From Chloroflexota bacterium (lineage in GTDB: Bacteria > Chloroflexota > Anaerolineae > Promineifilales > Promineifilaceae): 36,810 bases of DNA. The notes beneath the pieces were generated by a model. It did no database searches and was not told the DNA's origin. It worked only from the letters and a program-made list of their open reading frames with translations. The position numbers were made by a program, and so were the translations under genes. Positions within the stretch are counted from its first letter, which is position 1; each line of letters begins with the position of its first letter. Of this stretch, positions 9,729 to 29,064 are shown one piece after another. Where the stretch lies: contig JAAYYY010000562.1 of assembly GCA_012515125.1 (NCBI GenBank), positions 1 through 36,810 on the forward strand, read 5' to 3'.

Positions 9729-12700
9729 ATGAGCACGAAGTTTGGTCTTCACGTCGCTTCGGGCAGCCACAACGGCTATGGTGACGTCGTCGCCGCGGCG
9801 CCCGCCGTCGTGCTCGCCGTTGGCGAAGGGGGCGCGCTGGTCGAAGCGCGGGAAAAAAGCGTGGCGGCGCCGGGCGCAGCGCCGCGGACCATCACCATCT
9901 TCCGCGACCAGACCGTCTTCCACGACGCCCCGCCCGGCATCGACCAGATGAGCGAGGCGCAGGCCAGGGCGGCTGCCGACCAGTACTGGCCCCAGCTCAA
10001 AGAGAAATACCGGCTCAACCCGGCCGATTACTACCAGGTAACCAACGAGTACGGGGGCGATAACCCCACTTCTCTGGCCAACCTCGTCGCCTTCGAGACA
10101 CGCCTGATGGAGCTGGCCGAGCGCGATGGCTTCAAGCTGGCGGTCGGCAGCCCTGCCGGAGGCAGCCCCGGTAGCTGGGAGCTGTGGGTCCGCTTCTACG
10201 TACCCCTCATCCGCCGCGCGGGCGAGGGAGGCCACATCTACAGCCGCCATGCCTACGGCGGCGTCGTCCATCCAGACGGCATTGCCACGCTGACCGCGCC
10301 CGACGGTCAGGCTGCCGACGATAACGCCGGCCGGCCCTTCCGCGAGGCCGCCTACCTGCGCGCGCAGGGAATTCGCACGCCGATCGTCATCACCGAAGCG
10401 GGGCAGAACGGCGGCTTCCGTTTTCCCGGCGTCGATACGTTCATGGAAGACATGGCCCGCTATGACCGGCTCTGCCGGCAGCACGAGAACATCTGGGGCT
10501 TCTGCGCCTGGACCTACGGCAAGTACCTCGACTTCCCGGCCAACATCGAACCCGCTTCCAGCCGCATGGCCGACTACCTACGGCAGCAGGGGGGCGCCAC
10601 GCGGCCGGTCTATCCCACCGTCGCGGGAGGCGTGACGCCGCCCGCGCCCGAGCCGGCTGTCACCACCGAAAGCCCGTCTGCGCCAACGTCAACCGGCTTT
10701 CGCTTTACCCACTGGCCGACCGAATACCGCCGGATCAACCAGGCCTACAACAACGATCCCGCCTACTACGGCCAGTGGGGGCTGACCGGGCACGAAGGGC
10801 TGGACATCCAGGCGCCGCTCAACAGTCGCATTTTTGCCTGCGCGCCCGGCCGGGTCGAGCTGGTACGTCGCGAGGCGGAGGGCCATCCCTATGGCAACGC
10901 CGTCTACATGCGTCACGACGACGGCTACCGCACTACCTATGCTCATCTGCAGCAGGTCAACGTGGCTGCGGGCGACCAGGTCGCCGGCGGCCAGCTGCTG
11001 GGGCTGGCGGGCAGTACCGGCAACTCGCGGGGCGCCCACCTGCACCTGACCCTGTATAAAGACGGCGCGACAGCCCGCGGCGAGACACGGCAGCCTCGCG
11101 ACATCATCGACCCGACGCCGTTTGTCAACGCCCTGCGCGCTGCCGAATGGGCGCCGCCGCAGCCGCCGCTGCTCAATGGCTGGGGTTTCGCCACAAGCAT
11201 CGAGCGAGCCGGAGAGCTGGGCCGGGTTAAAGAGGGCATCAACATCAATCTGCGCGCCCAGCCCAGCCAGCAGGCCGGCAAGCTTGGCGCGGTGCCCGCC
11301 GGCACCGTCGTGCGCGTCACCGGCAATGCCCAGAACGACTATCTGCCGATCCAGGTGGCCGAAGCCGCCGTTACCGAGCGCGCGGGGGCGGCTCCCGGCA
11401 CTCACGCCTACGAGTTCATCAGCTTTGAGAACAGCGCCGGCGACTACACCAACGTGCAGCCCGGCCGGCAGTTCACCGCTTCCTGGGTCGTGCGCAACAG
11501 CGGCGGGTTGCCCTGGTCGGGCGATTTCCAGCTCGCCTATAGCGACGAGCCGGTCGCGCAGACGGCTAACCAGGCGCGCTCGCGGCTGGGCGCGCCCGCT
11601 TCCAGCACCTTCCGGCAGCTCAGCGGGCGCGAGCAGATTGCCCCGGGCGAATCGCTCACCTTCCAGCTCAAGCTGACCGCGCCCCTGCAGCCGGGCTGGT
11701 ACGCTTCCCACTGGCAGCTGCGCACGGCCGGCGGCGAGGTGATCGGCCGGCCCCTCTGGCTGCACATCAACGTGGCGGGCGCGGTCGATCCCATTGTGAT
11801 CGGGCCGGCAGCGCCTTTCCAGGCGGGGATGAACATCAACCCCGACGTGCATCCGCCAGACGTAGACCGGCTGCGCGGCCTGAGCTGGGTGCGCTTCCCC
11901 TACAAGGCCTCGGCTAAACACCGCAACGTGGACCAGGCGTTCAACGACGAATACCGCGCCCTCATCCAGGCCTATGCGAATGCCGGCATCAAGAGCCTGC
12001 TCATCCTCAACCAGGAGACGGAGTGGGGCAACGCGCCCTGGCACAACGGCGATTGGCCCGGTTACGCCGGCTCGCTGGCCCGCGCGGCGCGGCGCATTGC
12101 CGAGCTGGCGGCTCCGTTTGGCGATAAGGTCGCCTACCAGATCTGGAATGAAGGAGACAGCGATCCGACCAACCCCTCGGCCATCGGCGTCAGCCCGGAG
12201 AACTTCGCGCCGGTACTGCAGCAGACCGCCGCCGCCATCCGCGCCGTGGACCCCGACGCGACGATTGTCTTCGGCGGGCTGAACACAGGGCCGGAAAACG
12301 CCGTGGCCTATGCGCGCCGCGTGCGCGACCTGCTCGGGGGTCGCCTGCCCGTCGATGCGCTGGCCTACCACCCCTACGGTCGCTACGTCGAGTTCGACCC
12401 GTTCTATGGCAAGCAGTTCGGCCGGCTGGACGACGCGCTGCGCGTTTTCAAACAGGCGTTCCCCGACCTGCCCCTGTGGATAACCGAGCTGGGCATCGCC
12501 AACGATACGCCCATCGGCCCCGAGCATTACGAGAAAATCGCCCGCTACATGCGCGAGGTCGTCAGCGCCATCGCCGACCGCCACGCGAAAAACGTCCCGG
12601 TCCTCATCTGGTTCGCCTGGTCCGACCACATGCGCAACGCCGGCATCTCCACCACGAGCGGCGAGCTGAAGCCGCACATCAAAGAGGCTTTTCAGGCGCT

Positions 12701-14156
12701 GGTCAACGCGGGCAAGGCCGCTCCCGCCTTCGCCGACATGCGCTTTGCCGCCGGCCGGCCCCAGCCCATGGCGGAGTTCGTCAGCTTCAGCACCACGCTT
12801 ACCGACCATAACGCCGTGCCCGCCGGCAGTACCTTCGCCAATACCTGGCGCTTCCGCAACACCGGCGGAACGACGTGGGACGAAGGCTACAAGCTCGTCT
12901 ACGCACCGCAGGGCGCGACGAGCCACCCGATGATGAACGAGAAGAGCTTTTCCCTGGCCAAAGTCGCCAGCCCGCTGCCCGCCGCGCCGGGCGACGAGGT
13001 AGCGATCAACCTGTCGCTCACTGCGCCCGAACAGCACGGGCGCGTCTACCGCAGCCCCTGGCAGATTCGCGACGCAGCAGGCAAGGCCTTCGCCCACCTC
13101 TATGCCGAGATTACGGTCATCCCGGCTTCTACCGAAGGGAGCGGCGCACGGCAGGCCGACATGCGCTTTATCGCCGACCATACCATCCCCGACGATACGC
13201 CTCTGCCGGAGGGGCAGACCTTCCTCAAGCAGTGGCGCGTGCAGAACACCGGCGCGCGGCATTGGGGCAGCGGCTTCCGTCTCGTCTTCGTCGAGGGCGA
13301 CCTGCAGATGGCGGCGGGCATTGCCTCGCACATGGTTCCCGAATCGAAACCGGGCGACGAGGTCATTCTCTCCGTGCCCATGGTCGCGCCGGTCGCCCAG
13401 GAGAAGCGCGCGACGACCTACAGCAGCCTCTGGCGGCTCCAGGATGACCGGGGCAACTTCTTCGGCGCGCCTATCTGGGCGCGCATCATCTCCCAGCCCG
13501 GGGAGATGGTCACGCCGCTCGGCCGCTTCGCCGATATGTCCGGCTGGTATTCACAGCACGATCCCCGTTGGGCCAACGAGCGACTGGGCCACGGCCAGCA
13601 GACCATCGGCGCGTGGGGCTGCCTGCTGACCTGTTACGCGATGATGCTCACCGCCTACGGCCTGCGCGTGACGCCTGCCGACGTGAACCGGCGCTTCCAG
13701 CAGCTCGGCGACCAGGGGTTCCGCGGCTCCGATGTGCAGTTCATCGCCCCCACCCATCTGCTCGCCGGGCTGACCCTGGGCCGCAACCTGCGCTCCTGGC
13801 CGACCCCGGAGCTACCGTTTACGGAGTGGACGGGCGAGGATCCGATTGCGCGCATCGACAGGGCCATCGCCGACGGCTTCACGGTGCTCGCCCAGGTAGA
13901 CCGCAGGCCCAACGATGCCTTCTACCACTCCAACACGGAGCAGCACTGGGTCATCCTCGTCACGCGGACGCCCGACGGCTCCGATTATCTGATGCTCGAC
14001 TCGATCACGCCGCCCGGCCAGCTACAGAACCAGCCGCTCTCGCTGATGCGCAAATATGGCAGCCCCGCGCCCAGCCGCTCCCACGAGGACAACCTGCGCC
14101 ACGCCATCAAATCGGCCCTGATCTACCTCTTCTCCGGGCAGCCCGGCAGCGGCTAG
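9729..14156 (+). CDS. Giant modular cell-wall/polysaccharide-active protein: glycosidase-like, M23 peptidase, SH3-like, NBR1-like Ig, glycosidase-like, two more NBR1-like Ig, C39-like peptidase
   Basis: M23: 'GHEGLDIQAP...YAHLQ...HLHLTL'. Glycosidase-like 1: 'YYQVTNEYGGDN', 'PIVITEAGQNG'. Glycosidase-like 2: 'VAYQIWNEGDSDP', 'LPLWITELGIAND'. NBR1-like: 'FTASWVVRNSGGLPWSGDFQLAY', 'FANTWRFRNTGGTTWDEGYKLVY', 'FLKQWRVQNTGARHWGSGFRLVF'. C39-like: 'YSQHDPRWANERLG...GAWGCLLTCYAMML', 'QHWVILV', 'MLDS'. RBS 'caggagg'. Confidence 0.88.
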   Translation: MSTKFGLHVASGSHNGYGDVVAAAPAVVLAVGEGGALVEAREKSVAAPGAAPRTITIFRDQTVFHDAPPGIDQMSEAQARAAADQYWPQLKEKYRLNPADYYQVTNEYGGDNPTSLANLVAFETRLMELAERDGFKLAVGSPAGGSPGSWELWVRFYVPLIRRAGEGGHIYSRHAYGGVVHPDGIATLTAPDGQAADDNAGRPFREAAYLRAQGIRTPIVITEAGQNGGFRFPGVDTFMEDMARYDRLCRQHENIWGFCAWTYGKYLDFPANIEPASSRMADYLRQQGGATRPVYPTVAGGVTPPAPEPAVTTESPSAPTSTGFRFTHWPTEYRRINQAYNNDPAYYGQWGLTGHEGLDIQAPLNSRIFACAPGRVELVRREAEGHPYGNAVYMRHDDGYRTTYAHLQQVNVAAGDQVAGGQLLGLAGSTGNSRGAHLHLTLYKDGATARGETRQPRDIIDPTPFVNALRAAEWAPPQPPLLNGWGFATSIERAGELGRVKEGININLRAQPSQQAGKLGAVPAGTVVRVTGNAQNDYLPIQVAEAAVTERAGAAPGTHAYEFISFENSAGDYTNVQPGRQFTASWVVRNSGGLPWSGDFQLAYSDEPVAQTANQARSRLGAPASSTFRQLSGREQIAPGESLTFQLKLTAPLQPGWYASHWQLRTAGGEVIGRPLWLHINVAGAVDPIVIGPAAPFQAGMNINPDVHPPDVDRLRGLSWVRFPYKASAKHRNVDQAFNDEYRALIQAYANAGIKSLLILNQETEWGNAPWHNGDWPGYAGSLARAARRIAELAAPFGDKVAYQIWNEGDSDPTNPSAIGVSPENFAPVLQQTAAAIRAVDPDATIVFGGLNTGPENAVAYARRVRDLLGGRLPVDALAYHPYGRYVEFDPFYGKQFGRLDDALRVFKQAFPDLPLWITELGIANDTPIGPEHYEKIARYMREVVSAIADRHAKNVPVLIWFAWSDHMRNAGISTTSGELKPHIKEAFQALVNAGKAAPAFADMRFAAGRPQPMAEFVSFSTTLTDHNAVPAGSTFANTWRFRNTGGTTWDEGYKLVYAPQGATSHPMMNEKSFSLAKVASPLPAAPGDEVAINLSLTAPEQHGRVYRSPWQIRDAAGKAFAHLYAEITVIPASTEGSGARQADMRFIADHTIPDDTPLPEGQTFLKQWRVQNTGARHWGSGFRLVFVEGDLQMAAGIASHMVPESKPGDEVILSVPMVAPVAQEKRATTYSSLWRLQDDRGNFFGAPIWARIISQPGEMVTPLGRFADMSGWYSQHDPRWANERLGHGQQTIGAWGCLLTCYAMMLTAYGLRVTPADVNRRFQQLGDQGFRGSDVQFIAPTHLLAGLTLGRNLRSWPTPELPFTEWTGEDPIARIDRAIADGFTVLAQVDRRPNDAFYHSNTEQHWVILVTRTPDGSDYLMLDSITPPGQLQNQPLSLMRKYGSPAPSRSHEDNLRHAIKSALIYLFSGQPGSG

Positions 14157-16949: not shown

Positions 16950-17621
16950 ATGATGCAGCGTGAAGTATCGCCATTTCAGCAAATCGTTCCCGTGCAGCGG
17001 CCGCCGGTCGTCCTGTTCCGGCGCCCCTACCGCATCAGCAAGCGGCTGTTTGACATTACCCTCTGCTTGCTGGCCCTACCTATATTGCTGCCGCTCGGCG
17101 CTCTGATCGCCCTGCTCATCTGGCTCGACGATCCGGGCCCGGTTCTCTTCCGGCAGTACCGTACCGGCTTGGGTGGGCGGCGTTTTGCTATGTACAAGTT
17201 CCGGACGATGGTTACCAATGCGGAAGAGTTGAAGGCGAAGTACGCGCACCTCAACGAGCTAACCTGGCCCGATTTCAAGATCACGGACGATCCCCGCGTC
17301 ACGCGGATGGGCCGGTTCCTGCGCAAGACAAGTCTGGACGAGCTTCCTCAGGTTCTTAACGTGCTCAAGGGGGACATGAGCCTGGTCGGCCCACGCCCGA
17401 CGTCGTTCGACGTGAGTACCTACTCGCTCTGGCACACCGAACGACTGGAGGTACTGCCGGGCATCACCGGGCTATGGCAGGTCAGCGGTCGGAGCGACAT
17501 CGATTTTGACGAACGCCTGCGCCTGGACATTGAGTACATCGAGCGGCAAAGCCTGCTGTTTGATCTGGCAATCCTGTTCCGCACAGTTGGCGCCATATTC
17601 ACCAGCCGGGGCGCCTATTAA
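16950..17621 (+). CDS. Undecaprenyl-phosphate sugar phosphotransferase (initiating EPS sugar transferase)
   Basis: 'SKRLFDITLCLLALPILLPLGALIALLIWLDDPGPVLFRQYRTGLGGRRFAMYKFRTM', 'RKTSLDELPQVLNVLKGDMSLVGPRP', 'LPGITGLWQVSGRSDIDFDERLRLDIEYI'. Confidence 0.95.
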   Translation: MMQREVSPFQQIVPVQRPPVVLFRRPYRISKRLFDITLCLLALPILLPLGALIALLIWLDDPGPVLFRQYRTGLGGRRFAMYKFRTMVTNAEELKAKYAHLNELTWPDFKITDDPRVTRMGRFLRKTSLDELPQVLNVLKGDMSLVGPRPTSFDVSTYSLWHTERLEVLPGITGLWQVSGRSDIDFDERLRLDIEYIERQSLLFDLAILFRTVGAIFTSRGAY

Positions 17622-17743: not shown

Positions 17744-18607
17744 GTGAAGCGTTTTCGACTCACTCTCGTACTGATTATCACCTGGTTCTTTCTACTCTAT
17801 AACGTCGAGCGGTTGGATGGGCCATCGGTTAACCTTGCCTCGTTTGTGTACGGTTTTGCCTTTGTGACGGCAGTCGCCGTGATCGCCGTGCCGGCCCTCC
17901 ACGAGTGGCCGTTGCCCAGGGTTCTCCTGATCATTCTGCCGCTTTACTTCCTGCTGAAGGTCTACCTCGATTATCCGATTGTCGGGGATGGCCTGATGCA
18001 CCTGCCGATCACGGTCACCGAGATTGCGGCTCTCGTCGTCACCCTGCTTCTCGCGCGGGATATCATGCAGCGCTTCACCCATCTCCAGAAGGGGCTCGCT
18101 CGTGTGACGCTGTCGCACCTCGACGATGCCTCTCCGTTTGAGGATGGGCAGAGCCTGATCTACCGGGAGATCCGCCGCGCGCGCCGCCGGCAGCGGCCGC
18201 TCGCCCTGCTCGCGCTGAAGCCAACGGCGTCCTCGGTCTCCTACTCCATGGATCGCTTCCTGGAAGAAGCACAGGCCGAAATCATCAAGCACTACATCGG
18301 GGCGAACGTCGCCAACCTGCTGCTGACGACCCTGGAAGATTATGACATTGTGACCCGGCGCAACAACCATTTCATCGTCGTGCTGCCCGAAGCAGACGAG
18401 GATGAGCTGCAAGAAACGATCGACCGGCTGCAGCGCGAGGCGCGCAACCGGCTGGGTATTGAGTTCAGTATCGGTACGGCCCGGTTCCCCGACGACGCCG
18501 TTACCTTTGGCCAATTGTTGACCGATGCGGAACGGGCCATGCACCGTTCGTCGGCCAGCGAGCCACCGGCCGAAAGAGAAACAACCGCCGTCGAGAGTGC
18601 GGCGTAG
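17744..18607 (+). CDS. Membrane protein with degenerate GGDEF domain
   Basis: Several N-terminal TM segments; 'IYREIRRARRRQRPLALLAL' (GGDEF-domain N-terminal helix/strand) and 'YDIVTRRNNHFIVVLPEADEDELQETIDRLQREARNRLGIEFSIGTARFPDDAVTFGQLLTDAERAM'; GTG start. Confidence 0.75.
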   Translation: MKRFRLTLVLIITWFFLLYNVERLDGPSVNLASFVYGFAFVTAVAVIAVPALHEWPLPRVLLIILPLYFLLKVYLDYPIVGDGLMHLPITVTEIAALVVTLLLARDIMQRFTHLQKGLARVTLSHLDDASPFEDGQSLIYREIRRARRRQRPLALLALKPTASSVSYSMDRFLEEAQAEIIKHYIGANVANLLLTTLEDYDIVTRRNNHFIVVLPEADEDELQETIDRLQREARNRLGIEFSIGTARFPDDAVTFGQLLTDAERAMHRSSASEPPAERETTAVESAA

Positions 18608-18659
18608 CGAGCCGGCTCGTCCTGCGGACCGAGGGGGCTTACCTGGAGAGAGAATCACC

Positions 18660-20324
18660 ATGGAAAAACAACATCTACGCCGTCTGCTCCGTCGCTGGTT
18701 GTGGCTGTTCCTGCTGGGAGCCGTTGTCGCCGGCGCCATCAGTTATGCCATTGAGAGCCGCAACCCGCCGCTGTACGCGACGACCGCCAGGCTGATTGTC
18801 GGGCCGGGCATCGACAGCCCCAGCCCCGACCTCAACGACCTGCGCGCTGGCGGCCAGCTGATGCAGACCTACGCCGAGTTGCCGGAGACGACGCCGTTCC
18901 TGCGTTCGGTTATCGAACAGCTCAACCTGAACCTGACGCCTTCTCAGCTGGAGGACATGATCACGGTCTATACCAATACCGATACGCAGCTACTCAGCAT
19001 CGACGTGGTCACCCCCGATCCTGTTATGGCGACGGCGATTGCCAACTCGGTGGCAGAGACCCTCGTCCGTTATAGCCCCTCCGGGGGCGAGACGCCGGCC
19101 GGCGCCCTGCACCAGCAGATTCTCCGGCAGGCGGATGAGATCGAAGCCTCTATTCCGGTAATCACTCAGCGGATTGAAGAGCTGGAGCAGAACATTGCGG
19201 CAACGGACGACGTCGAGGCGCAGCAGTTCCTCGCCGAGCAGCTCTTCGCCGAGCGGGAACGGCTTGACGAGTACCGTAGCACGCTGACGGGCCTCTTCGA
19301 GACGCTGCAGCGGTCGGCGACGAACCAGGTCAAGATCATCGAGCCAGCGCGACCGCCGACGCTCGTAGCTTCGCGGCTCTGGCTTGCGGTAGCCATCGGT
19401 GTTCTCGCCGGGTTGACCTTCAGCGCCCTTCTCGTCTTCGGTTACGAATACCTGACCGACAGTGTCGATACTGCCGAGGAAATGAGCGAGGCGACCGGCG
19501 TGGCTACGCTGGCCACCCTGGCTCGTAGCAAACCCATGCACAGCCCGCCACACATGAAAATGGTGGTCCGCGCGCAACCGACATCGGCAGCGGCCGAGGA
19601 ATACCGCACGGCGGCGATCAAGCTGCTCTTTGCCCGCCAGACGGGCCGCCCGATGCGTTCCATCCTGATGACCAGCGTGGAAGAAGAGCAGGATATCGGC
19701 GAGATCGCCGCGAACCTGGCTATCGTGCTGACCCAGACGGGCAGCCGGGTGGTGCTTGTGGACGGCAATATGCAGCGGCCAACCATCGGCCAGCACTTCG
19801 GCTTCCTCGACCGCTGCGGCCTGACCGACGTTCTGCGCGGCGCCTGCACGACGGCCGATCCCACCACCGTATACTGGGCGCCAGGGCTTTCCGTCCTGCC
19901 CAGCGGCTCGCTAACCGACAATGCCTTTACCCTGCTGGCCTCGCCGCGCATGGTGGACGTGCTGCAAGAGCTACAGGCGCGCACGGATATCGTCCTGATC
20001 ACCGCCTCGCCCCTCAGCAGCTCGGCCGACAGCCTTTTCCTCGCTCCGCACGTGGACGGCGTCATCCTCGTCGCTCAGAGCCGGCAGGCGCGCCGCCGTA
20101 TGCTGCGCAGCGCCGTCGCCAGCCTGCAGGCGGTCGGCGCCTCTATCGTCGGCGGCCTCCTCCAGGAAGGGGGCCGGCCCACGCGCCGCATCGCCTGGGG
20201 CCGCCAGCCAGACGTGGTGCGCGAGCTGGAAGACACCCTTCCCCTCCGCCCAGAGGAAGAGGATGTCCCCGAGCCCGAACAGGCCGAAGTAGGGCGTTCC
20301 TTCGACACCCTCCCTTCACAGTAA
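18660..20324 (+). CDS. Wzz-type chain-length determinant fused to a degenerate BY-kinase/CpsD-like domain
   Basis: N-terminal TM and Wzz region ('LRRLLRRWLWLFLLGAVVAGAISYAIESRNPPLYATTARLIVG'), second TM at 'LWLAVAIGVLAGLTFSALLVFGYEYLTDSVDTAEEM', then a MinD/BY-kinase-like domain. ATG at 18660, not 18525. Confidence 0.88.
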   Translation: MEKQHLRRLLRRWLWLFLLGAVVAGAISYAIESRNPPLYATTARLIVGPGIDSPSPDLNDLRAGGQLMQTYAELPETTPFLRSVIEQLNLNLTPSQLEDMITVYTNTDTQLLSIDVVTPDPVMATAIANSVAETLVRYSPSGGETPAGALHQQILRQADEIEASIPVITQRIEELEQNIAATDDVEAQQFLAEQLFAERERLDEYRSTLTGLFETLQRSATNQVKIIEPARPPTLVASRLWLAVAIGVLAGLTFSALLVFGYEYLTDSVDTAEEMSEATGVATLATLARSKPMHSPPHMKMVVRAQPTSAAAEEYRTAAIKLLFARQTGRPMRSILMTSVEEEQDIGEIAANLAIVLTQTGSRVVLVDGNMQRPTIGQHFGFLDRCGLTDVLRGACTTADPTTVYWAPGLSVLPSGSLTDNAFTLLASPRMVDVLQELQARTDIVLITASPLSSSADSLFLAPHVDGVILVAQSRQARRRMLRSAVASLQAVGASIVGGLLQEGGRPTRRIAWGRQPDVVRELEDTLPLRPEEEDVPEPEQAEVGRSFDTLPSQ

Positions 20325-21959
20325 ATGGCCTACATCGCCGAGGAACAGGATTCGCAGGGTAATTCCATGACATCCGAACCACCCGTCGTTCCGGTCGCGG
20401 AGATGGCCGACGGCGCCTCTACCCGCGACCAGGGAGCGAAGGCCACACGCCGCCACATCCGCGGCTCGTCTATCCTCTTTGCCGGACGGCTGATTTCCAT
20501 CGCCCTCAACTTTGGCGTGCAGGTGCTCACCGTTCGCTATCTGTTGAAGAGCGACTACGGCGCCTTCGCCTACGCCCTGTCCATTGCCTCAATCGGTGCA
20601 AGCGTCGCCCTCTTTGGCCTGGACAAGGCGGTAGCGCGCTTCATTCCCATCTATGAGGAGCGCGGCGAAGATGACAAGATGCTCGGCACCATCGTCATGA
20701 CGCTGCTGACCATTCTGGGAATTGGCGCTGCGCTCGTCCTGGGCGTCATTGGCTTTCGCGGCCTCATCGGCGACCGCTTCGTCCAGGACCCGCTCGCCGT
20801 CTCGCTGCTGGTTCTGCTGATTCTGCTTTCGCCCCTGCAGGCTATCGATAGCTGGTTCCAGGGGCTCTTCGCTGTGTTCGCCAAGCCGCAGGCCATCTTT
20901 GTACGCCGCTACGTGCTGGGACCGGTCATGAAGCTCGCTGCCGTGCTCGTCGTCATCCTCAGCCGTCAGGGCGTCTACGTGCTCGCCGTCGGCTATCTCG
21001 TCGCCGCCATCATCGGCTCTCTGATCTATGCCGCCATGCTGCGCCAGCTTTTCCGCGAGCGCGGCATCCGCGTCAGCGAGACGCTACGGCGCATTGTCTT
21101 CCCGGTGCGCGAGGTCTTCTCCTTCAGCACGCCGCTGCTGACCAGCGACGTCATGAACATCCTGAAGTCCAGTTTTGTCGTCGTCTTGCTGCAATATTTC
21201 GCCAGCACGACAGAGGTGGCCGAGTTCCGCGCCGTCGTCCCCGTTGCCGGCCTCAACCTCATTGTCATGCAAAGCTTCAAATATCTCTTCACGCCGGAAG
21301 CGGCCCGCCTCTTTGCCCGCCAGGATAGCCAGGGGATCAACGACCTCTACTGGCGTTCGGCTACGTGGATCGCCGTGATCACCTTCCCGGTGTTCGCCGC
21401 CTCCTTCTCCCTCGCGCGCCCCCTGACGGTTCTGCTCTTTGAGGAGCGCTACGCCAGCTCGGCGACGGTGCTGGCGCTGCTCACGCTGGGCAACTATATG
21501 AACGCCGCTATGGGCTTCAACGCTTACACCCTGCGCGTCTTTGGCAAGGTTGGCTATATTGTCGCCATCGACCTGTTCACCGCGCTCGTCGGCGTGGTCC
21601 TGAACGTCCTGCTCATCCCGCCCTATGGGGCCATTGGCGCCGCCATCGGTACGACGGCTGCGCTCGTTCTCTACAACCTGCTCAACCACGCCGGCCTGCT
21701 GCTGGGCACACAGATCCGGCTCTTCCAGCCCCGTTACCTGCGCGTCTATGCCAGCATTGTCCTCGGCGCTGTCGTGCTGCTGCTGATCGACCTGCTGCTT
21801 GAGCCGGGCGTTGTCGCCGGAGGCCTGTTGATCGCCGCCATTTCCCTGCTGCTCGTCCTCTTTAACTGGCAGGTGATGGAGGCCGGCCGGATGTTCCCCG
21901 AGCTGCATCGCATTCCGGTCCTCGGCCCGCGTCTGATGGCCCTGGAGAAACAATCATGA
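20325..21959 (+). CDS. Polysaccharide flippase (Wzx/oligosaccharide flippase family)
   Basis: Many TM segments; 'RGSSILFAGRLISIALNFGVQVLTVRYLLKSDYGAFAYALSIASIGASVALFGLDKAVARFIP' typical of Wzx. An internal ATG at 20367 is an alternative start. Confidence 0.9.
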   Translation: MAYIAEEQDSQGNSMTSEPPVVPVAEMADGASTRDQGAKATRRHIRGSSILFAGRLISIALNFGVQVLTVRYLLKSDYGAFAYALSIASIGASVALFGLDKAVARFIPIYEERGEDDKMLGTIVMTLLTILGIGAALVLGVIGFRGLIGDRFVQDPLAVSLLVLLILLSPLQAIDSWFQGLFAVFAKPQAIFVRRYVLGPVMKLAAVLVVILSRQGVYVLAVGYLVAAIIGSLIYAAMLRQLFRERGIRVSETLRRIVFPVREVFSFSTPLLTSDVMNILKSSFVVVLLQYFASTTEVAEFRAVVPVAGLNLIVMQSFKYLFTPEAARLFARQDSQGINDLYWRSATWIAVITFPVFAASFSLARPLTVLLFEERYASSATVLALLTLGNYMNAAMGFNAYTLRVFGKVGYIVAIDLFTALVGVVLNVLLIPPYGAIGAAIGTTAALVLYNLLNHAGLLLGTQIRLFQPRYLRVYASIVLGAVVLLLIDLLLEPGVVAGGLLIAAISLLLVLFNWQVMEAGRMFPELHRIPVLGPRLMALEKQS

Positions 21960-23239
21960 TCGCCCACGCCGAACAGACGCTCGAACGCGACCTGGAGCAG
22001 AGGCTGGAGCCACAGCCGCAGCCGCCGCGCGTGGCCTATATTATGTCGCGCTTCCCCAAGCTGACAGAGACGTTTGTGCTGCTGGAGATCATGGCGCTGG
22101 AAGCCCAGGGCTTTTGCGTGGAACTCTTCCCGCTGTGGCGCGAAAAGGCGACGACCATCCATCCCGAGGCGCAGGAGCTGGTCGAGCGCGCCCATTACAC
22201 GCCCGCCCTCAACCTGCCTATTCTGCGAGCCAATCTGCGCGCGCTGTGGAAGCAGCCCCGCGCTTACCTGGGCGCTCTGGGCACGCTGGTGCGGACCAAC
22301 CTGGGCAGCTCGCGCTATCTGGCCGGCGGGCTGGCCGCCTTCCCTAAGGCCGTCTACATGGGCGAGCAGATGCTGGCGGCCGGCGTCGGCCACGTCCACG
22401 CTCATTTCGCCAGCCACCCGGCAGCCGCCGCCTTCGTCATCCATCGCCTCACCGGGCTACCTTACAGCTTCACGGCCCACGGCTCTGACCTGCATCGCGA
22501 CCAGCACATGCTCTGCGAGAAGGTCGCCGAGGCGGCCTTCGTCGTAGCCATTTCCGACTATAACCGCAACGTCATCCTGTCGCACTGCGGCGGCCAGAAA
22601 AACGGCCATCTGCGGGTGATCCACTGCGGTGTGGACACGACCCAGATTGAACCGCGCTGTAGCTACGAGCAGCACGGCCCTCTGCGTCTGCTCTGTATCG
22701 GCACGCTGCACACCGTCAAAGGGCAGAGCTATCTCATCGCGGCGCTGGCCGAGCTACGCCGGCAGGGCATCGACGCGACCGTCGATTTTGTTGGGGACGG
22801 CCCGGACCGCGCCGCGCTGGAGCAGCAGGCCGAGCAGGCCGGCGTCGGCCCGTTTGTGCAGTTCCACGGCGCGCAGACCCGCGAGCAGGTGATGGCCCAC
22901 CTGCGCCGGGCTGACGTGGCCGTGGCCCCCAGCGTGCCTACCGCCGATGGCCGGCGCGAAGGCATCCCTGTCGCCCTGATGGAGGCGATGGCGGCGGGCC
23001 TGCCTGTCGTCGCCAGTCGGCTCTCCGGCATCCCCGAGCTGGTGACGGACGGGAAGTCCGGTCTCCTGACCCCACCCGGCGACGTGGCGGCGCTGGCAGC
23101 GGCTATCCGGCGCCTGCACGACGATCCGGCGCTGCGCGAGAGGCTCGGCCGGGCCGCGCGCGCCACCGTCGAGCGGGATTTCGACCTGCACGGCAACGTC
23201 GCCCTGCTGGCCCGGCAGTTCCAGGAGGCGCAGGCATGA
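21956..23239 (+). CDS. Glycosyltransferase family 4 (GT-B)
   Basis: 'VHAHFASHPAAAAFVIHRLTGLPYSFTAHGSDLH', 'VAVAPSVPTADGRREGIPVALMEAMAAGLPVVASRLSGIPELVTDGKSGLLTPPGD'. Confidence 0.95.
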   Translation: MIAHAEQTLERDLEQRLEPQPQPPRVAYIMSRFPKLTETFVLLEIMALEAQGFCVELFPLWREKATTIHPEAQELVERAHYTPALNLPILRANLRALWKQPRAYLGALGTLVRTNLGSSRYLAGGLAAFPKAVYMGEQMLAAGVGHVHAHFASHPAAAAFVIHRLTGLPYSFTAHGSDLHRDQHMLCEKVAEAAFVVAISDYNRNVILSHCGGQKNGHLRVIHCGVDTTQIEPRCSYEQHGPLRLLCIGTLHTVKGQSYLIAALAELRRQGIDATVDFVGDGPDRAALEQQAEQAGVGPFVQFHGAQTREQVMAHLRRADVAVAPSVPTADGRREGIPVALMEAMAAGLPVVASRLSGIPELVTDGKSGLLTPPGDVAALAAAIRRLHDDPALRERLGRAARATVERDFDLHGNVALLARQFQEAQA

Positions 23240-24405
23240 GGCTGTTCCTCTTCTGGAGTTCGGTAGGGCTGCTGATCTACACCTATTTCCTCTTCCCGCT
23301 GCTCGTCGCCGCGCGCGCCGTGCTGCGCCCCCGGCCGCACCGGGAGGCAAACATTACCCCATCCGTCAGCGTGATCATCGCCGCGCACAACGAAGAGGCC
23401 GTCATCGGCCCCAAGCTCGACAACCTGCTCTCGCTCGACTACCCGCGCGACTGCCTGGAGGTGATCGTCGCCTCCGATGGGTCGGATGACGGCACGAACG
23501 AGCTGGTGCGCACCTACGAGTGGCAGGGCGTGCACCTGCTGGCCCTGCCCCGGCAGGGCAAAGCGGCGGCCCTCAACGCCGCCGTCGCCGAGACCAAGGG
23601 CGAGATCCTCGTCTTCTCGGACGCCAACAGCATCTACGCGCCCGGCGCGCTGCGGGCTCTCGTCCGCCCCTTCGCCGACCCGACCGTGGGCGGCGTGGCC
23701 GGCAACCAGGTCTACCGGCCCGCCCCGGAGGCCAGCCTGGCCGGCGAGGGCGAAAAGCAATATTGGGGGCTGGATCGTCAGCTCAAGCTGTACGAAAGCG
23801 CCGCCGGGAACGTCATTTCGGCGACCGGGGCCATCTATGCCATCCGCCGCGAGCTGTTCGCGCCGGTCGCTGAGGGCGTCACCGACGACTTCTACACCTC
23901 AACGGGCGTGATCGCCCAGGGTTACCGCCTCGTCTTTGCGCCGCAGGCCATCGCCTACGAAGCGGTGGCGGGAAAGAGTGGCGACGAGTTCGGCCGCAAA
24001 GTGCGCGTCATCACCCGTGGCCTGCGGGGCGTCCTGCTGCGCCGCGAGCTGCTGGACCCGCGCCGCCACGGCTTCTACGCACTACAGCTCTTCTCGCATA
24101 AGGTGCTGCGGCGGCTGGTCGCCGTGCCGCTCCTCTTGCTGGCCCTCGTCAGCCCGCTGCTGTGGGCGCGCGGCGCGCTCTACCGTCTCGCCACGCTCGG
24201 CCAGGCGCTGTTTTATGGCCTGGCGGCCGCGGGCATCGCCGCGGAACGTTCGGGTCGCAAGCTACACAGGCTGCTGGCGCTGCCCGCCTACTTCTCGCTG
24301 GTCAACGTCGCCGCGCTGCAGGCGACGCTGAACGTCTTGCGCGGGCGCTCCATCGTCGTCTGGGAGCCGACCCGCGCCACGGCAGCGCCGGAGGAGGGAC
24401 GATGA
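23236..24405 (+). CDS. Glycosyltransferase family 2, membrane-associated
   Basis: 'PSVSVIIAAHNEEAVIGPKLDNLLSLDYPRDCLEVIVASDGSDDGTNELV', 'VFSDANSIYAPGALRALV'. Confidence 0.95.
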   Translation: MRLFLFWSSVGLLIYTYFLFPLLVAARAVLRPRPHREANITPSVSVIIAAHNEEAVIGPKLDNLLSLDYPRDCLEVIVASDGSDDGTNELVRTYEWQGVHLLALPRQGKAAALNAAVAETKGEILVFSDANSIYAPGALRALVRPFADPTVGGVAGNQVYRPAPEASLAGEGEKQYWGLDRQLKLYESAAGNVISATGAIYAIRRELFAPVAEGVTDDFYTSTGVIAQGYRLVFAPQAIAYEAVAGKSGDEFGRKVRVITRGLRGVLLRRELLDPRRHGFYALQLFSHKVLRRLVAVPLLLLALVSPLLWARGALYRLATLGQALFYGLAAAGIAAERSGRKLHRLLALPAYFSLVNVAALQATLNVLRGRSIVVWEPTRATAAPEEGR

Positions 24406-25979
24406 GCACACTGAGCGCGCGCGCCGAATCACTGCGCCTGTTCCTGCGTGCCTACAAGCCAGTCGTGGTCCTGCTGCTGGCGGTGCTGGGCGGCGTCATA
24501 GGCGGCCTGCTGGCGACCTCGCCGCTGCTGGCGCTGGCAAGCATCGTGCTGCTGGTGGTCTCCATCACGGTTCTCAGCTGGCCGGAAGCAGCCACGTTGC
24601 TGGTCATCTTTATCCTTTATAGCAACATCGCCGTCGTCCTGGTGCGGTTCCACGGCGTGCCGTTCATCGCCGGTGCGGCCTTTCCGTTGTTGCTGGCTCT
24701 CCCGCTGGCGATTTACCTGGTTCTGGAACGGCGCCCGCTGCGCATCACGCCCGCGCTGCCCTACGTCGTCCTCTTCATGGCCGCCCAGCAGGTCAGCCTT
24801 CTGTTCTCGAACGATCCTGCCGCCTCTTTCCGTGAAGTCACCAACTTCGTCCTCGAAGGCTTTCTCATCTACCTGCTGGTGATTAACGTGGTACGGACGC
24901 CCCGCACCCTGCGCCATGTAGCCTGGACGCTGCTGCTCGCGGGTATCGTCCTGACGGCGGCGCCCTTTTACCAGCAGATAACGGGTAGCTTTGACGACAC
25001 GTTGGGGGGCTTCGGCCAGCTCTCCGAAGTTGGCTTCCGCACGGGGGAAACGAACCTGGTGGAGGGCGATTTACGCCAGTACCGACTCTCGGGCCCCATC
25101 GGCGAACAAAACCGCTACGCCCAGGTGTTGCTCATGCTGGTGCCGCTCGGCTGGTTTGCCCTCTATTTCGAGCGGTCGCTCGGCCTCAAGCTGCTGGGTC
25201 TGGCCCTGGCCGGCGTTGCGCTGGGCGGTGTGGCCCTTTCCTTTTCTCGTGGCGCGGCCGTGGCTTTTGTCATCCTCGTGTTAGCCATGCTGGTGACGCG
25301 CCTGCTTCGCCCGGCCCATTTCCTCGTCTTCCTGCTGCTTGTCGCCGTCGTCCTGATGGCTGTGCCGCAGCTAACGGTGCGCCTGGTGACGATCCCCTCA
25401 GTGACAGATCTGCTCAGCGAGGAGACGACGACGAGCGAGCTGGACGGCGCCATCCGCGGGCGGGCGACGGCCATGATTGCCGCCGCTCTCGTCTTCGCCG
25501 ACCATCCGATTGTCGGCGTAGGGCCGGGGCAATTTCAGTTCTATTCCGCCGAGTACGGGAACCGGCTGGGCATCCGTATTCTGGAAGGGAATCGGGAGGC
25601 CCATTCGCTCTTCCTCGACGTGGCCGCCAACTATGGCATCCTTGGCCTGATCTCTTTCCTGGCTATGGTCCTGGTGCCCATCCGCGTTATTCTGGCTGCC
25701 CGGCACAAGCTGGCAGGTCGCCGGCCGGCGCTCAGCTACCTGACGATTGGCTTTGCTTTTGCCATTCTGGCCTATCTGGGTACGGGCATCTTCCTGCACC
25801 TTTCCTACGTGCGCTATTTCTGGCTGATGCTGGGCCTGGCCGATACGGCTGCGCTGATTGCCCAGCGCGCAGCCAATGAAGAACCGATCGTGCGCGCCTA
25901 CGCGGCGACGGCTGGCCTGAACGCGCGAGATTACGCAGGCGAATGGCTGCCCGGCGAGACAGCAGGAGGCTCGCAATAA
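24402..25979 (+). CDS. O-antigen ligase/polymerase-like membrane protein
   Basis: Multi-TM; Wzy_C-like 'GRATAMIAAALVFADHPIVGVGPGQFQFYSAEYG...REAHSLFLDVAANYGILGLISFLAMV'. ATG at 24402 rather than 24162. Confidence 0.88.
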   Translation: MSTLSARAESLRLFLRAYKPVVVLLLAVLGGVIGGLLATSPLLALASIVLLVVSITVLSWPEAATLLVIFILYSNIAVVLVRFHGVPFIAGAAFPLLLALPLAIYLVLERRPLRITPALPYVVLFMAAQQVSLLFSNDPAASFREVTNFVLEGFLIYLLVINVVRTPRTLRHVAWTLLLAGIVLTAAPFYQQITGSFDDTLGGFGQLSEVGFRTGETNLVEGDLRQYRLSGPIGEQNRYAQVLLMLVPLGWFALYFERSLGLKLLGLALAGVALGGVALSFSRGAAVAFVILVLAMLVTRLLRPAHFLVFLLLVAVVLMAVPQLTVRLVTIPSVTDLLSEETTTSELDGAIRGRATAMIAAALVFADHPIVGVGPGQFQFYSAEYGNRLGIRILEGNREAHSLFLDVAANYGILGLISFLAMVLVPIRVILAARHKLAGRRPALSYLTIGFAFAILAYLGTGIFLHLSYVRYFWLMLGLADTAALIAQRAANEEPIVRAYAATAGLNARDYAGEWLPGETAGGSQ

Positions 25980-25983
25980 ACCG

Positions 25984-27099
25984 ATGACAGACAACCATCG
26001 CAGCATCGAATTCAACTTGCATAATCTCGTCACCATTCGCGTCGTGGATGGCGGCCCGGCCGACGTTGCCGCCGTGCGCCGGCAGGTTGGCCTGCCCGCC
26101 ATGCCGGTGCAGGAGTCGGGCCCGGCTCCCGACATCACCATTCGTTTCGTGGATCGGCTGGATACGCCGGGGCTGCGGTACATCGGCGTGGACGATGCAG
26201 CTTTCACCAACGATGCCTTCTTTGTCCTGCGCGGGAAAAATAAACGGCTGATTAAAGTCCAGATACCGTTCGCGGAGATTGGCACGCCAACCACGCTGGT
26301 CAGCGAGCGTAACGTCGGCGCCATCCCCCTGCTCACGGCGATCACCAACCTCACGGCGCTGGCGAAAGGGGCGCTGCCCCTCCACGCCGCTGCTTTCTGC
26401 TACGGCGGCCACGGCGTCCTGACCACAGGCTGGTCTAAAGGCGGCAAGACGGAAACACTGCTGGGCTTCATGGCCCACGGCGCCACCTTCATCGGCGACG
26501 AGTGGGTTTACCTCAGCCCCGACGGCGCCCGGATGTACGGCCTGCCCGAACCGGTGCGCATCTGGGAGTGGCATCTGAGCGAGATGCCCGAATACCGGGC
26601 AAGGTTGAGCCCGAAGCAGCGCGCACGTATGGCCTTGCTGCGGGTGCCGATCGCCCTCGCCGACCGGGCCGCTGAACGAGATGGAAACAGCCTGCTGCGC
26701 CGCGCCCGCCCGCTGTTGCGCCGGCAGCACGGCCTGAATATCTCGCCGCAGCGCCTCTTCGGCCATGATCGCCTGCTTTCGTCCGGCCCGCTGGACAAGG
26801 TCTTCTTTGTCGTCAGCGGCGAGGCGCCAGAGGTGACTGTCGAGCCGGGCGACCCCGAAGACGTGGCGGCGCGGATGCTCTTTTCTCTGCTGGAGGAGCA
26901 GATGCCGCTGCTCTCTTATTACTGGAAATATCGCTTCGCCTTCCCCGAACGGCCCAACGAGCTGCTGGAAACTGTGCAGCAGCGGCAGGCCGAGGCCCTG
27001 CAGCGGGTGCTGGCGGGCAAAGAGCTATACATCGTCACCCACCCCTACCCGGCGCCCATCCCCGCTATGGTCGCGGCTATGGCGCCCGTTCTGGCCTGA
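25984..27099 (+). CDS. HPr kinase/phosphorylase (HprK C-terminal)-like P-loop protein
   Basis: 'GVLTTGWSKGGKTETLLGFMAHGATFIGDEWVYL' aligns with HprK 'GDSGIGKSETALELIKRGH.LVADD'; P-loop at 26428-26451. Confidence 0.7.
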   Translation: MTDNHRSIEFNLHNLVTIRVVDGGPADVAAVRRQVGLPAMPVQESGPAPDITIRFVDRLDTPGLRYIGVDDAAFTNDAFFVLRGKNKRLIKVQIPFAEIGTPTTLVSERNVGAIPLLTAITNLTALAKGALPLHAAAFCYGGHGVLTTGWSKGGKTETLLGFMAHGATFIGDEWVYLSPDGARMYGLPEPVRIWEWHLSEMPEYRARLSPKQRARMALLRVPIALADRAAERDGNSLLRRARPLLRRQHGLNISPQRLFGHDRLLSSGPLDKVFFVVSGEAPEVTVEPGDPEDVAARMLFSLLEEQMPLLSYYWKYRFAFPERPNELLETVQQRQAEALQRVLAGKELYIVTHPYPAPIPAMVAAMAPVLA

Positions 27100-27109
27100 G
27101 TGGAGCCCT

Positions 27110-27850
27110 GTGAAGGAAAAACGGAAAGGTACGCACGAGAAAATGTTCTCAGTGGCCCTCATTGGCGCCGACGGCGCAGGAAAAACCACGGTCGCCCGCC
27201 ATCTTGAAGTCCGGCAGGAAATGCCTGTCCGTTACCTGTATATGGGCGTCAGCAAAAGCTCCAGCAACCGGATGCTGCCCACAACTCGTCTGATGCTGGC
27301 TCTAAAGCGGGCTGCCGGCCGGGATGACGACGAAGGCGGGCCGCCCAATCCCGCGCGGCAGGCACGGCCTGCGCGTGGCTGGCGCCGCCTGCTGCGATCG
27401 GGCAAGCGGGCGCTCTCGCTGGCGAACCGCCTGGCCGAAGAGGGCTACCGGGCGCTTCTGGCGACGCACTACCGCCGCCAGGGCTATATTGTTCTATTTG
27501 ACCGTCACTTCTACAGCGATTACTATGCTCATGATATCGTCGGCAACGGCCATCAAACCCGCTGGCGGCGCATACACGGGCTCTTTCTCAACCACTTCTA
27601 CCCAAAGCCCGATTATTTGATTCTTCTCGACGCCCCGGCGCCCGTCCTGCACGCGCGCAAAGGGGAAGGTACGGTTGAGCTACTTGAACGTCGTCGCGCT
27701 GAATACTGGCAGCTTCGGGAACAGGTTCCCTATTTTTCCGTCGTCGATGCGACCCAGCCGCAGGAGGCCGTCGTGCAGCAGGTGACCGACCTGATCCGCA
27801 ACTTCCAGAAACAGCAGCGCGAACCTATTGTGGGCGGGGTGGAGGATTGA
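27110..27850 (+). CDS. Thymidylate kinase-like P-loop kinase
   Basis: 'VALIGADGAGKTTVARHLE', 'VLFDRHFYSDYYAHD', 'PDYLILLDAPAPVLHARKGEGTVELLERRRAEYWQL'. Confidence 0.75.
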   Translation: MKEKRKGTHEKMFSVALIGADGAGKTTVARHLEVRQEMPVRYLYMGVSKSSSNRMLPTTRLMLALKRAAGRDDDEGGPPNPARQARPARGWRRLLRSGKRALSLANRLAEEGYRALLATHYRRQGYIVLFDRHFYSDYYAHDIVGNGHQTRWRRIHGLFLNHFYPKPDYLILLDAPAPVLHARKGEGTVELLERRRAEYWQLREQVPYFSVVDATQPQEAVVQQVTDLIRNFQKQQREPIVGGVED

Positions 27851-29064
27851 TTATGCCCACCGTTCTGGTGACGGACGCCAGCCGTGGGAGCGCCATCACC
27901 ATCATCCGCTCGCTGAGCAAGATGGGCTGGACGGTGGTTGCTGCCGACGCCACTCGCCGCAGCCTGGGCTTTCGGTCGCGCCATGCACACCACCGCTTCG
28001 TCTACCCTTCGCCCTCTGCCGAGCCGGAAGCCTACGTCACCGCGCTGTGCGAGGCGGTGAGCCGGTATGCTGTGGACCTGCTCATTCCCATTACCGACGA
28101 GACGATACTGCCGCTGGCCCGCGCGCGCATTCGCTTTGCCGGGCAATGCCGGCTGGCTATTGCCGGCGATAAGGCGCTCCAGGCTGTAACCGATAAGCAG
28201 GTCACGCTCGATCTCTGCGAGGAGCTTGGCATTCCGGTGCCCGAGACCTACGTCGCCTACAGCGTCGAGGAGGCCCAGGAAGTAGCCCACTTGCTGCCCT
28301 GGCCCATTGTGGTCAAGGCCCAGCGCTCGCGCCGCCTGGTGAGCGGCGCCGGCGTGCAGAACACCGGCCCGGTCGGCTACGCCAACTCGGTCAAGCAGCT
28401 GATCGACCAGGCGGAGCGGCTCATCCAGCACGGGCCGGTCCTCCTGCAGGGCTACCAGCCGGGCACGGGCCAGGGGGTCGAGATGCTGGCCTACGAAGGG
28501 CGGCCGCTGGCTATATTCCAGCACCGCCGGCTGGCCGAGGTGCCGATTACCGGTGGGGCAAGCGCCTGGCGAGAGAGCGTCCCCCTGAACCCCACGCTCG
28601 TCGAGTACAGCCGGAGGCTGGTCGAAGCGCTGAACTGGACCGGGCTGATCATGGTCGAGTTCAAGGTCAATGAGACGGACGCCGTCCTGATGGAAGTCAA
28701 TGGACGGGTCTGGGGCTCGCTGCCGCTGGCCGTACATAGCGGCATGGATTTCCCCGCCCGGCTCGCCGAGCTTTACCTGAACGGCTCGCCACCGCCAGAA
28801 CCGCCGGCAACTGATTACCGCCGAGGCGTGCGCGCCTCCAATCTGGAGTTGATGGCCGTCTGGTTTGCCCAGGTTCTGCGCAAGCGCCGTCGCTATCCCT
28901 TTATCCCGCAGCCAGGGCGGCGCGATGCCCTGCGGGCCCTGCTGGGCATGTTCGGTCGTCGCCAGAAATTTGACGTACAGAGCTGGTCGGACCCCCTGCC
29001 CGGCCTGTTCCAGATAGGCCATACGCTGACCCACCTGAGCCGCAAAGCACGCGCCGCCAGTTGA
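27847..29064 (+). CDS. ATP-grasp family ligase (carboxylate-amine ligase-like)
   Basis: 'VLVTDASRGSAITIIRSLSKMGWTVVAADATRRSLGFRSRHAHHRFVYPSP', 'PWPIVVKAQRSR', 'LIMVEFKVNETDAVLMEVNGRVWGSLPLAVHSGMDFP'. Confidence 0.88.
   Translation: MIMPTVLVTDASRGSAITIIRSLSKMGWTVVAADATRRSLGFRSRHAHHRFVYPSPSAEPEAYVTALCEAVSRYAVDLLIPITDETILPLARARIRFAGQCRLAIAGDKALQAVTDKQVTLDLCEELGIPVPETYVAYSVEEAQEVAHLLPWPIVVKAQRSRRLVSGAGVQNTGPVGYANSVKQLIDQAERLIQHGPVLLQGYQPGTGQGVEMLAYEGRPLAIFQHRRLAEVPITGGASAWRESVPLNPTLVEYSRRLVEALNWTGLIMVEFKVNETDAVLMEVNGRVWGSLPLAVHSGMDFPARLAELYLNGSPPPEPPATDYRRGVRASNLELMAVWFAQVLRKRRRYPFIPQPGRRDALRALLGMFGRRQKFDVQSWSDPLPGLFQIGHTLTHLSRKARAAS

Follow-up and report, generated by a model that had tools for sequence, protein, structure and literature searches.

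The 36,810-nucleotide stretch of DNA analyzed here, referred to as the window, carries a Wzx/Wzy-type polysaccharide locus with two adjacent degenerate signaling genes. They encode a membrane-anchored pseudo-GGDEF protein and a Wzz co-polymerase fused to a BY pseudokinase domain. The degenerate features of both genes, which are intact, are conserved beyond chance in the sequences compared. We propose that the initiating phosphoglycosyl transferase (PGT) has the pseudo-GGDEF protein as a non-catalytic subunit in the membrane, and that the co-polymerase functions independently of phosphorylation; we give this explanation as a whole a probability of about 0.58. Pseudo-GGDEF regulators of polysaccharide synthesis are generally taken to be c-di-GMP receptors, and Wzz kinases are taken to be switches operated by phosphorylation. 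In the window, both signaling enzymes are dead and under selection, in a genome in which no c-di-GMP machinery was found. The retention of the two dead enzymes across many relatives suggests that contacts between proteins, rather than c-di-GMP or tyrosine phosphorylation, control the polymer.

Gene content of the locus

The window spans the whole of contig C484. The draft Chloroflexota genome to which it belongs is 4.69 Mb long and 94.5% complete. The named relatives of this genome are Anaerolineae/Chloroflexi MAGs, and the genomes compared are draft MAGs; the relatives also include the near-complete genomes G514 and G563. A forward run of genes from position 16950 encodes the PGT, the pseudo-GGDEF protein, the Wzz/BY-kinase-like protein, Wzx, GT4 and GT2 glycosyltransferases, and a Wzy-like protein (Table 1). 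The run continues with HprK-related, thymidylate-kinase-like, and ATP-grasp proteins, a deacetylase, a sulfotransferase, an alginate-lyase-like protein, a repeat protein, and a Ser/Thr kinase-like protein. The gene order from the PGT to the kinase-like protein is identical in a relative from the same genus, G001. The PGT contains the Bac_transf catalytic domain of monotopic phosphoglycosyl transferases, without the N-terminal four-helix/CoA_binding_3 module. Two further PGTs of the genome are 479–499 residues long and carry an N-terminal CoA_binding_3 domain.

Table 1 Features of the polysaccharide locus in the window.
Feature	Position	Strand	Basis or detail
Short initiating PGT (Bac_transf), 223 aa	16950..17621	+	Pfam Bac_transf PF02397, 9.4e-67
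Membrane-anchored pseudo-GGDEF protein, four helices and degenerate GGDEF domain, 287 aa, GTG start	17744..18607	+	Pfam, model, conserved family
Predicted membrane-helix region, aa 2-127	17747..18124	+	Helices 2-24, 32-48, 57-75, 89-127 in model
I-site RxxD position reads EDYD (E198-D-Y-D201), arginine lost	18335..18346	+	Alignment of 65 relatives
GG[DE]EF position reads RNNHF (aa 206-210)	18359..18373	+	Alignment
Wzz-type polysaccharide co-polymerase fused to BY pseudokinase domain, 554 aa	18660..20324	+	Fold, motif table
Lost Walker A, EEEQDIGE instead of xxGEGKST	19680..19703	+	Motif table
Altered Walker A', VDGN instead of VDAD	19752..19781	+	Motif table
Lost Walker B, DIVLITASP (VLITASP) instead of xVILDSPP	19986..20012	+	Motif table
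Wzx flippase, same operon	20325..21959	+	Polysacc_synt, 9.4e-20
GT4 and GT2 glycosyltransferases and Wzy/O-antigen-ligase-like polymerase	21956..25979	+	Order kept in G001
Ser/Thr protein kinase-like pseudokinase, end of conserved run, open at contig end	35504..36808	+	Lost catalytic motifs

The Ser/Thr kinase-like protein at the end of the run had been described as catalytically degraded in the initial annotation. Its β3 lysine is replaced by glutamine, HRD by HKL, and DFG by GLD, and its homolog at the same place in G001 (L183:3178-3848) is degenerate as well. The protein has a long Pro/Thr-rich tail. The HprK-related, thymidylate-kinase-like, and ATP-grasp proteins (25984-29064) lie inside the EPS operon, and their order is kept in G001. 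A 1475-residue protein encoded at 9729-14156 contains M23 peptidase, SH3, and glycosyl-hydrolase-like domains, and three NBR1-type Ig-like (N_BRCA1_IG) domains.

The pseudo-GGDEF protein and its link to the PGT

The pseudo-GGDEF protein scores 27.1 bits against the Pfam GGDEF profile, narrowly above the cut-off of 23.8. In the predicted model, its C-terminal domain matches solved GGDEF structures with a best TM-score of 0.73 (by target length), and Foldseek aligns it to a Thermotoga GGDEF domain with an E-value of 2e-7, and also to FimX; the predicted models are of modest confidence (pLDDT approximately 71 for the pseudo-GGDEF protein, and 63). By its predicted fold, the protein belongs to the GGDEF domain superfamily. 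The diguanylate cyclase signature GG[DE]EF is absent from the window protein and from all 65 full-length relatives in Chloroflexota that were examined in detail. The window protein also lacks the I-site RxxD of PelD-, PssE-, and YdaK-type receptors. Between the helices and the GGDEF domain, where PelD has a GAF domain, there is no Pfam match to GAF and no extra domain in the model.

Profile and sequence searches identified relatives of the pseudo-GGDEF protein in 12 of 59 near relatives, one of which, G049, contributes an unrelated active-type GGDEF protein. This match (L054) was excluded from the family because its GGDEF motif is intact and there is no PGT in its vicinity. The relatives occur throughout the class, and also beyond it within the phylum. 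Flanks are readable in 61 loci: the PGT lies beside the pseudo-GGDEF gene in 55 of them (directly downstream in 50 and directly upstream in five), is fused to it in five, and is missing from one. Since adjacency or fusion is found in 60 of the 61 testable loci, the PGT, and not Wzz, is the main partner of the pseudo-GGDEF protein as judged from gene neighborhoods. The search profile was not selected on neighboring genes, and the linkage is therefore not built in.

The five fusions form one branch, corresponding to one change on the tree. In natural fusions such as L051, L135, and L140, the pseudo-GGDEF part occupies the place where large PGTs carry their N-terminal four-helix module. The PGTs that partner separate pseudo-GGDEF proteins are short, mostly 215–300 residues. 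As the partner PGTs are short and two other PGTs of the window genome have CoA_binding_3, the pseudo-GGDEF protein appears to replace the module that large PGTs carry at their N-terminus.

A reading with the pseudo-GGDEF and pseudokinase genes as the core pair was dropped in favor of the pseudo-GGDEF protein and the PGT after the neighborhood counts. Most pseudo-GGDEF loci have no full-length BY-kinase-type Wzz alongside. The pair present in the window is one sub-type of pseudo-GGDEF loci.

The window and G001 share full-length open reading frames in the same order, with 46–49% identity and codon-position conservation. The dN/dS between them is about 0.2–0.3, with dS near saturation, and that of closer pairs is 0.16–0.33; by gene, it is 0.16–0.33 for the pseudo-GGDEF protein and about 0.25 for the pseudokinase. 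The soluble domain of the pseudo-GGDEF protein contains invariant positions, for example F248-P249 and T254-F255.

The Wzz pseudokinase

The Wzz reading frame is open from 18525, but the ATG at 18660 is the likelier start because the G001 ortholog begins at the same residue (MEK...). The protein has TIGR01007/EpsG-type matches below the curated cut-offs. Its kinase domain is nevertheless predicted to adopt the BY-kinase fold, with TM-scores of 0.86–0.89 to CapA1B1 and CapA2B2. None of the features of BY-kinases such as Wzc and CapB, namely Walker A, A', and B motifs and a Tyr-rich tail, was found in the window protein, which combines a Wzz-type PCP with a BY-kinase fold devoid of catalytic motifs and Tyr tail, as in PCP-2 proteins with a BY pseudokinase. 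The description of adjacent, degenerate GGDEF and BY-kinase genes in the initial annotation is correct in both parts.

A full-length Wzz-kinase is encoded within two genes of the pseudo-GGDEF gene in ten loci, and all three ATP motifs are gone in nine of them. The tenth kinase (G030, L045:3653-5338) has the Walker A sequence GEGRST, with lysine changed to arginine, and its other motifs are intact; from its sequence, it is possibly a halfway state. Among the other full-length Wzz-kinases, one of 48 (G148) lacks all three motifs, and another (G047) is partly degenerate; linkage of most of these 48 controls was judged by separate pseudo-GGDEF searches, not from long flanks. The difference corresponds to a Fisher p of about 1e-8, which is not an independent count, as the pseudokinases share one origin. 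G148 has no pseudo-GGDEF gene within about 8 kb. The comparison set leaves out G021, whose pseudokinase Wzz lies about 250 bases from the start of its contig, where a pseudo-GGDEF neighbor is uncheckable. The two degenerate genes had been suggested to form a conserved arrangement, with unlinked genes or intact motifs in relatives indicating local decay instead, and the counts for linked and other kinases uphold the conserved arrangement.

In a tree of Wzz-kinases computed with the motif columns and tail removed, the 11 pseudokinases form one side of a branch with an SH-aLRT of 100, and the G030 kinase adjoins them with a support of 100. The pseudokinases span six families (f1, f39, f35, f40, f38, and f56). 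On this unrooted tree, the loss of kinase function seems to trace to a single ancient event, in a lineage that was already linked to the pseudo-GGDEF protein.

Some pseudo-GGDEF/PGT loci encode Wzz proteins with a degenerate GGDEF domain where the window type has the pseudokinase. The domain is located C-terminally in L061:11925-13058, L121:6582-7718, L107:3928-5142, L118:5494-6744, L099:1208-2308, L125:8788-9960, and L135:9507-10778. These Wzz-fused domains have lost the GGDEF motif and have mostly kept RxxD. In the literature outside most subscription papers, we found no description of PGT–GGDEF or Wzz–GGDEF fusions.

Proposed mechanism, alternatives, and related systems

We hypothesize that the pseudo-GGDEF protein, encoded by a separate gene, supplies the module of four helices and a cytosolic domain found N-terminally in large WcaJ-type PGTs, and that it sets where or when the PGT is active via protein contact. 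The sequences and models show the degeneracy, the folds, the conservation, the purifying selection, and the linkage and fusion to the PGT; a physical complex, the direction of regulation, and a scaffold role are inferred, as adjacency and fusion are indirect evidence of contact. The Wzz co-polymerase would assemble and disassemble with no cycling of tyrosine phosphorylation, since its kinase domain has become a pseudokinase, which may serve as a structural or docking part; the analogy to EcpK and HfsB suggests that it acts by contact (PMC12004946). The module likely began as an I-site c-di-GMP receptor and would have been kept for another use after c-di-GMP signaling shrank in this lineage. 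RxxD is kept in 39 of the 65 relatives, including those in every one of the ten sampled genomes that have at least five (5–34) GGDEF matches, and its loss is seen only in genomes with 0–3 matches, a trend in a small, related sample. This history is not tight, because G034, G014, G022, G002, and G062 keep RxxD without detectable cyclases. We also considered a wider arrangement in Chloroflexota, in which pseudoenzymes alone control Wzx/Wzy polysaccharides: degenerate GGDEF domains on or beside PGTs would pair with degenerate GGDEF or pseudokinase domains on Wzz, and couple chain initiation and length by contacts, without cyclase, c-di-GMP, or kinase activity. We regard this generalization as doubtful.

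Gene decay in the window genome alone could produce the loss of several independent catalytic motifs in neighboring genes, but full-length orthologs with the same losses occur in at least six families, and the genes are under purifying selection with no frameshifts or stops. Conservation and dN/dS rule this explanation out, leaving it a probability close to nil. The pseudo-GGDEF protein could instead bind c-di-GMP at an I-site in the ordinary way, as PelD, PssE, and YdaK do; like them, it is encoded in an EPS operon and combines helices with a degenerate GGDEF domain, and the retention of RxxD in relatives with many GGDEF matches fits such a function. However, the I-site of the window protein is gone, and profile searches of the window genome recovered no GG[DE]EF cyclase, no EAL match, and no PilZ match. 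Sensing of c-di-GMP is therefore unlikely here, and an ordinary receptor is a highly improbable reading. Besides the window protein, the genome has a single GGDEF-type match, a receiver-domain protein (L186:1279-2184, contig C690) that lacks the motif. Proteins of this kind, with a receiver and a GGDEF-like domain in which GHASSxxF replaces the motif, are also encoded at L187, L185, and L190, and occur in many relatives.

In a possible arrangement put forward in the initial annotation, a ligand is sensed by the pseudo-GGDEF protein, and the state of this protein is relayed directly to the neighboring pseudo-BY-kinase/Wzz, the protein that sets chain length. The two genes adjoin in G000, G001, G030, G361, G399, and G411, the pseudo-GGDEF proteins linked to the pseudokinase branch belong to three separate branches (a single clade is rejected with a p-AU of 1e-53), and degenerate GGDEF domains are fused to Wzz itself in other loci. 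Nevertheless, the usual neighbor is the PGT without a kinase-type Wzz, the PGT gene sits between the pseudo-GGDEF and Wzz genes in G344, G146, and G165, and no ligand is indicated; ligand sensing is unsupported. Such a relay is possible but secondary and unproven, and we consider it unlikely as the main explanation. It is also rather unlikely that the pseudo-GGDEF protein has no regulatory role, being a leftover of a large PGT or simply a membrane anchor, with the pseudokinase serving only as the structural base of the co-polymerase. The partner PGTs do lack the usual four-helix module, and the fusions put the pseudo-GGDEF part exactly at its position, but the dN/dS of the soluble domain and its invariant positions go beyond an anchor's needs.

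The system of the window resembles PelD, PssE, and YdaK on the one hand, and EcpK and HfsB on the other, but the defining I-site is absent. PelD of Pseudomonas aeruginosa is composed of four membrane helices, a GAF domain, and a degenerate GGDEF domain that binds c-di-GMP via RxxD, and is part of an inner-membrane glycosyltransferase complex (PMC8461298). The window protein shares the four helices followed by a degenerate GGDEF domain and the location in an EPS operon, but has neither GAF nor RxxD, and Pel is synthase-dependent, whereas the window locus is of the Wzx/Wzy type with a PGT (PMC8461298). YdaK of Bacillus subtilis (PMC7064775) and PssE of Listeria monocytogenes (PMC4125290) similarly have helices and a degenerate GGDEF domain without GAF and belong to EPS operons; they differ in having RxxD and binding c-di-GMP, and their operons are not built around a receptor-adjacent PGT. 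Large WcaJ-type PGTs have the layout of the fused relatives, with four helices, a cytosolic domain, and a C-terminal PGT domain, but contain CoA_binding_3 where the fused relatives have the pseudo-GGDEF domain.

EcpK/EpsV of Myxococcus and HfsB/HfsA of Caulobacter are Wzx/Wzy-pathway pairs of a BY pseudokinase and a PCP-2 co-polymerase, proposed to work independently of Tyr phosphorylation (PMC12004946). EcpK and HfsB are separate proteins, whereas the window pseudokinase is fused to Wzz and encoded beside the pseudo-GGDEF/PGT pair. Wzc and CapAB share the Wzz part and BY-kinase fold with the window protein, which has lost all ATP-binding motifs and the Tyr cluster.

If the partnership with the PGT is true, control would be exerted at the first committed step of synthesis in the Wzx/Wzy pathway, a mode that our literature searches did not find described earlier. 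The loci provide a natural series, with the I-site kept or lost, the kinase intact or lost, and the domains fused or split, for asking how signaling enzymes become scaffolds.

Two Wzz-BY-kinases, L027:1474-3303 and L039:1462-3270, carry a C-terminal MerR/excisionase-like helix-turn-helix, which is odd for a membrane protein; the kinase of L039 is also partly degenerate.
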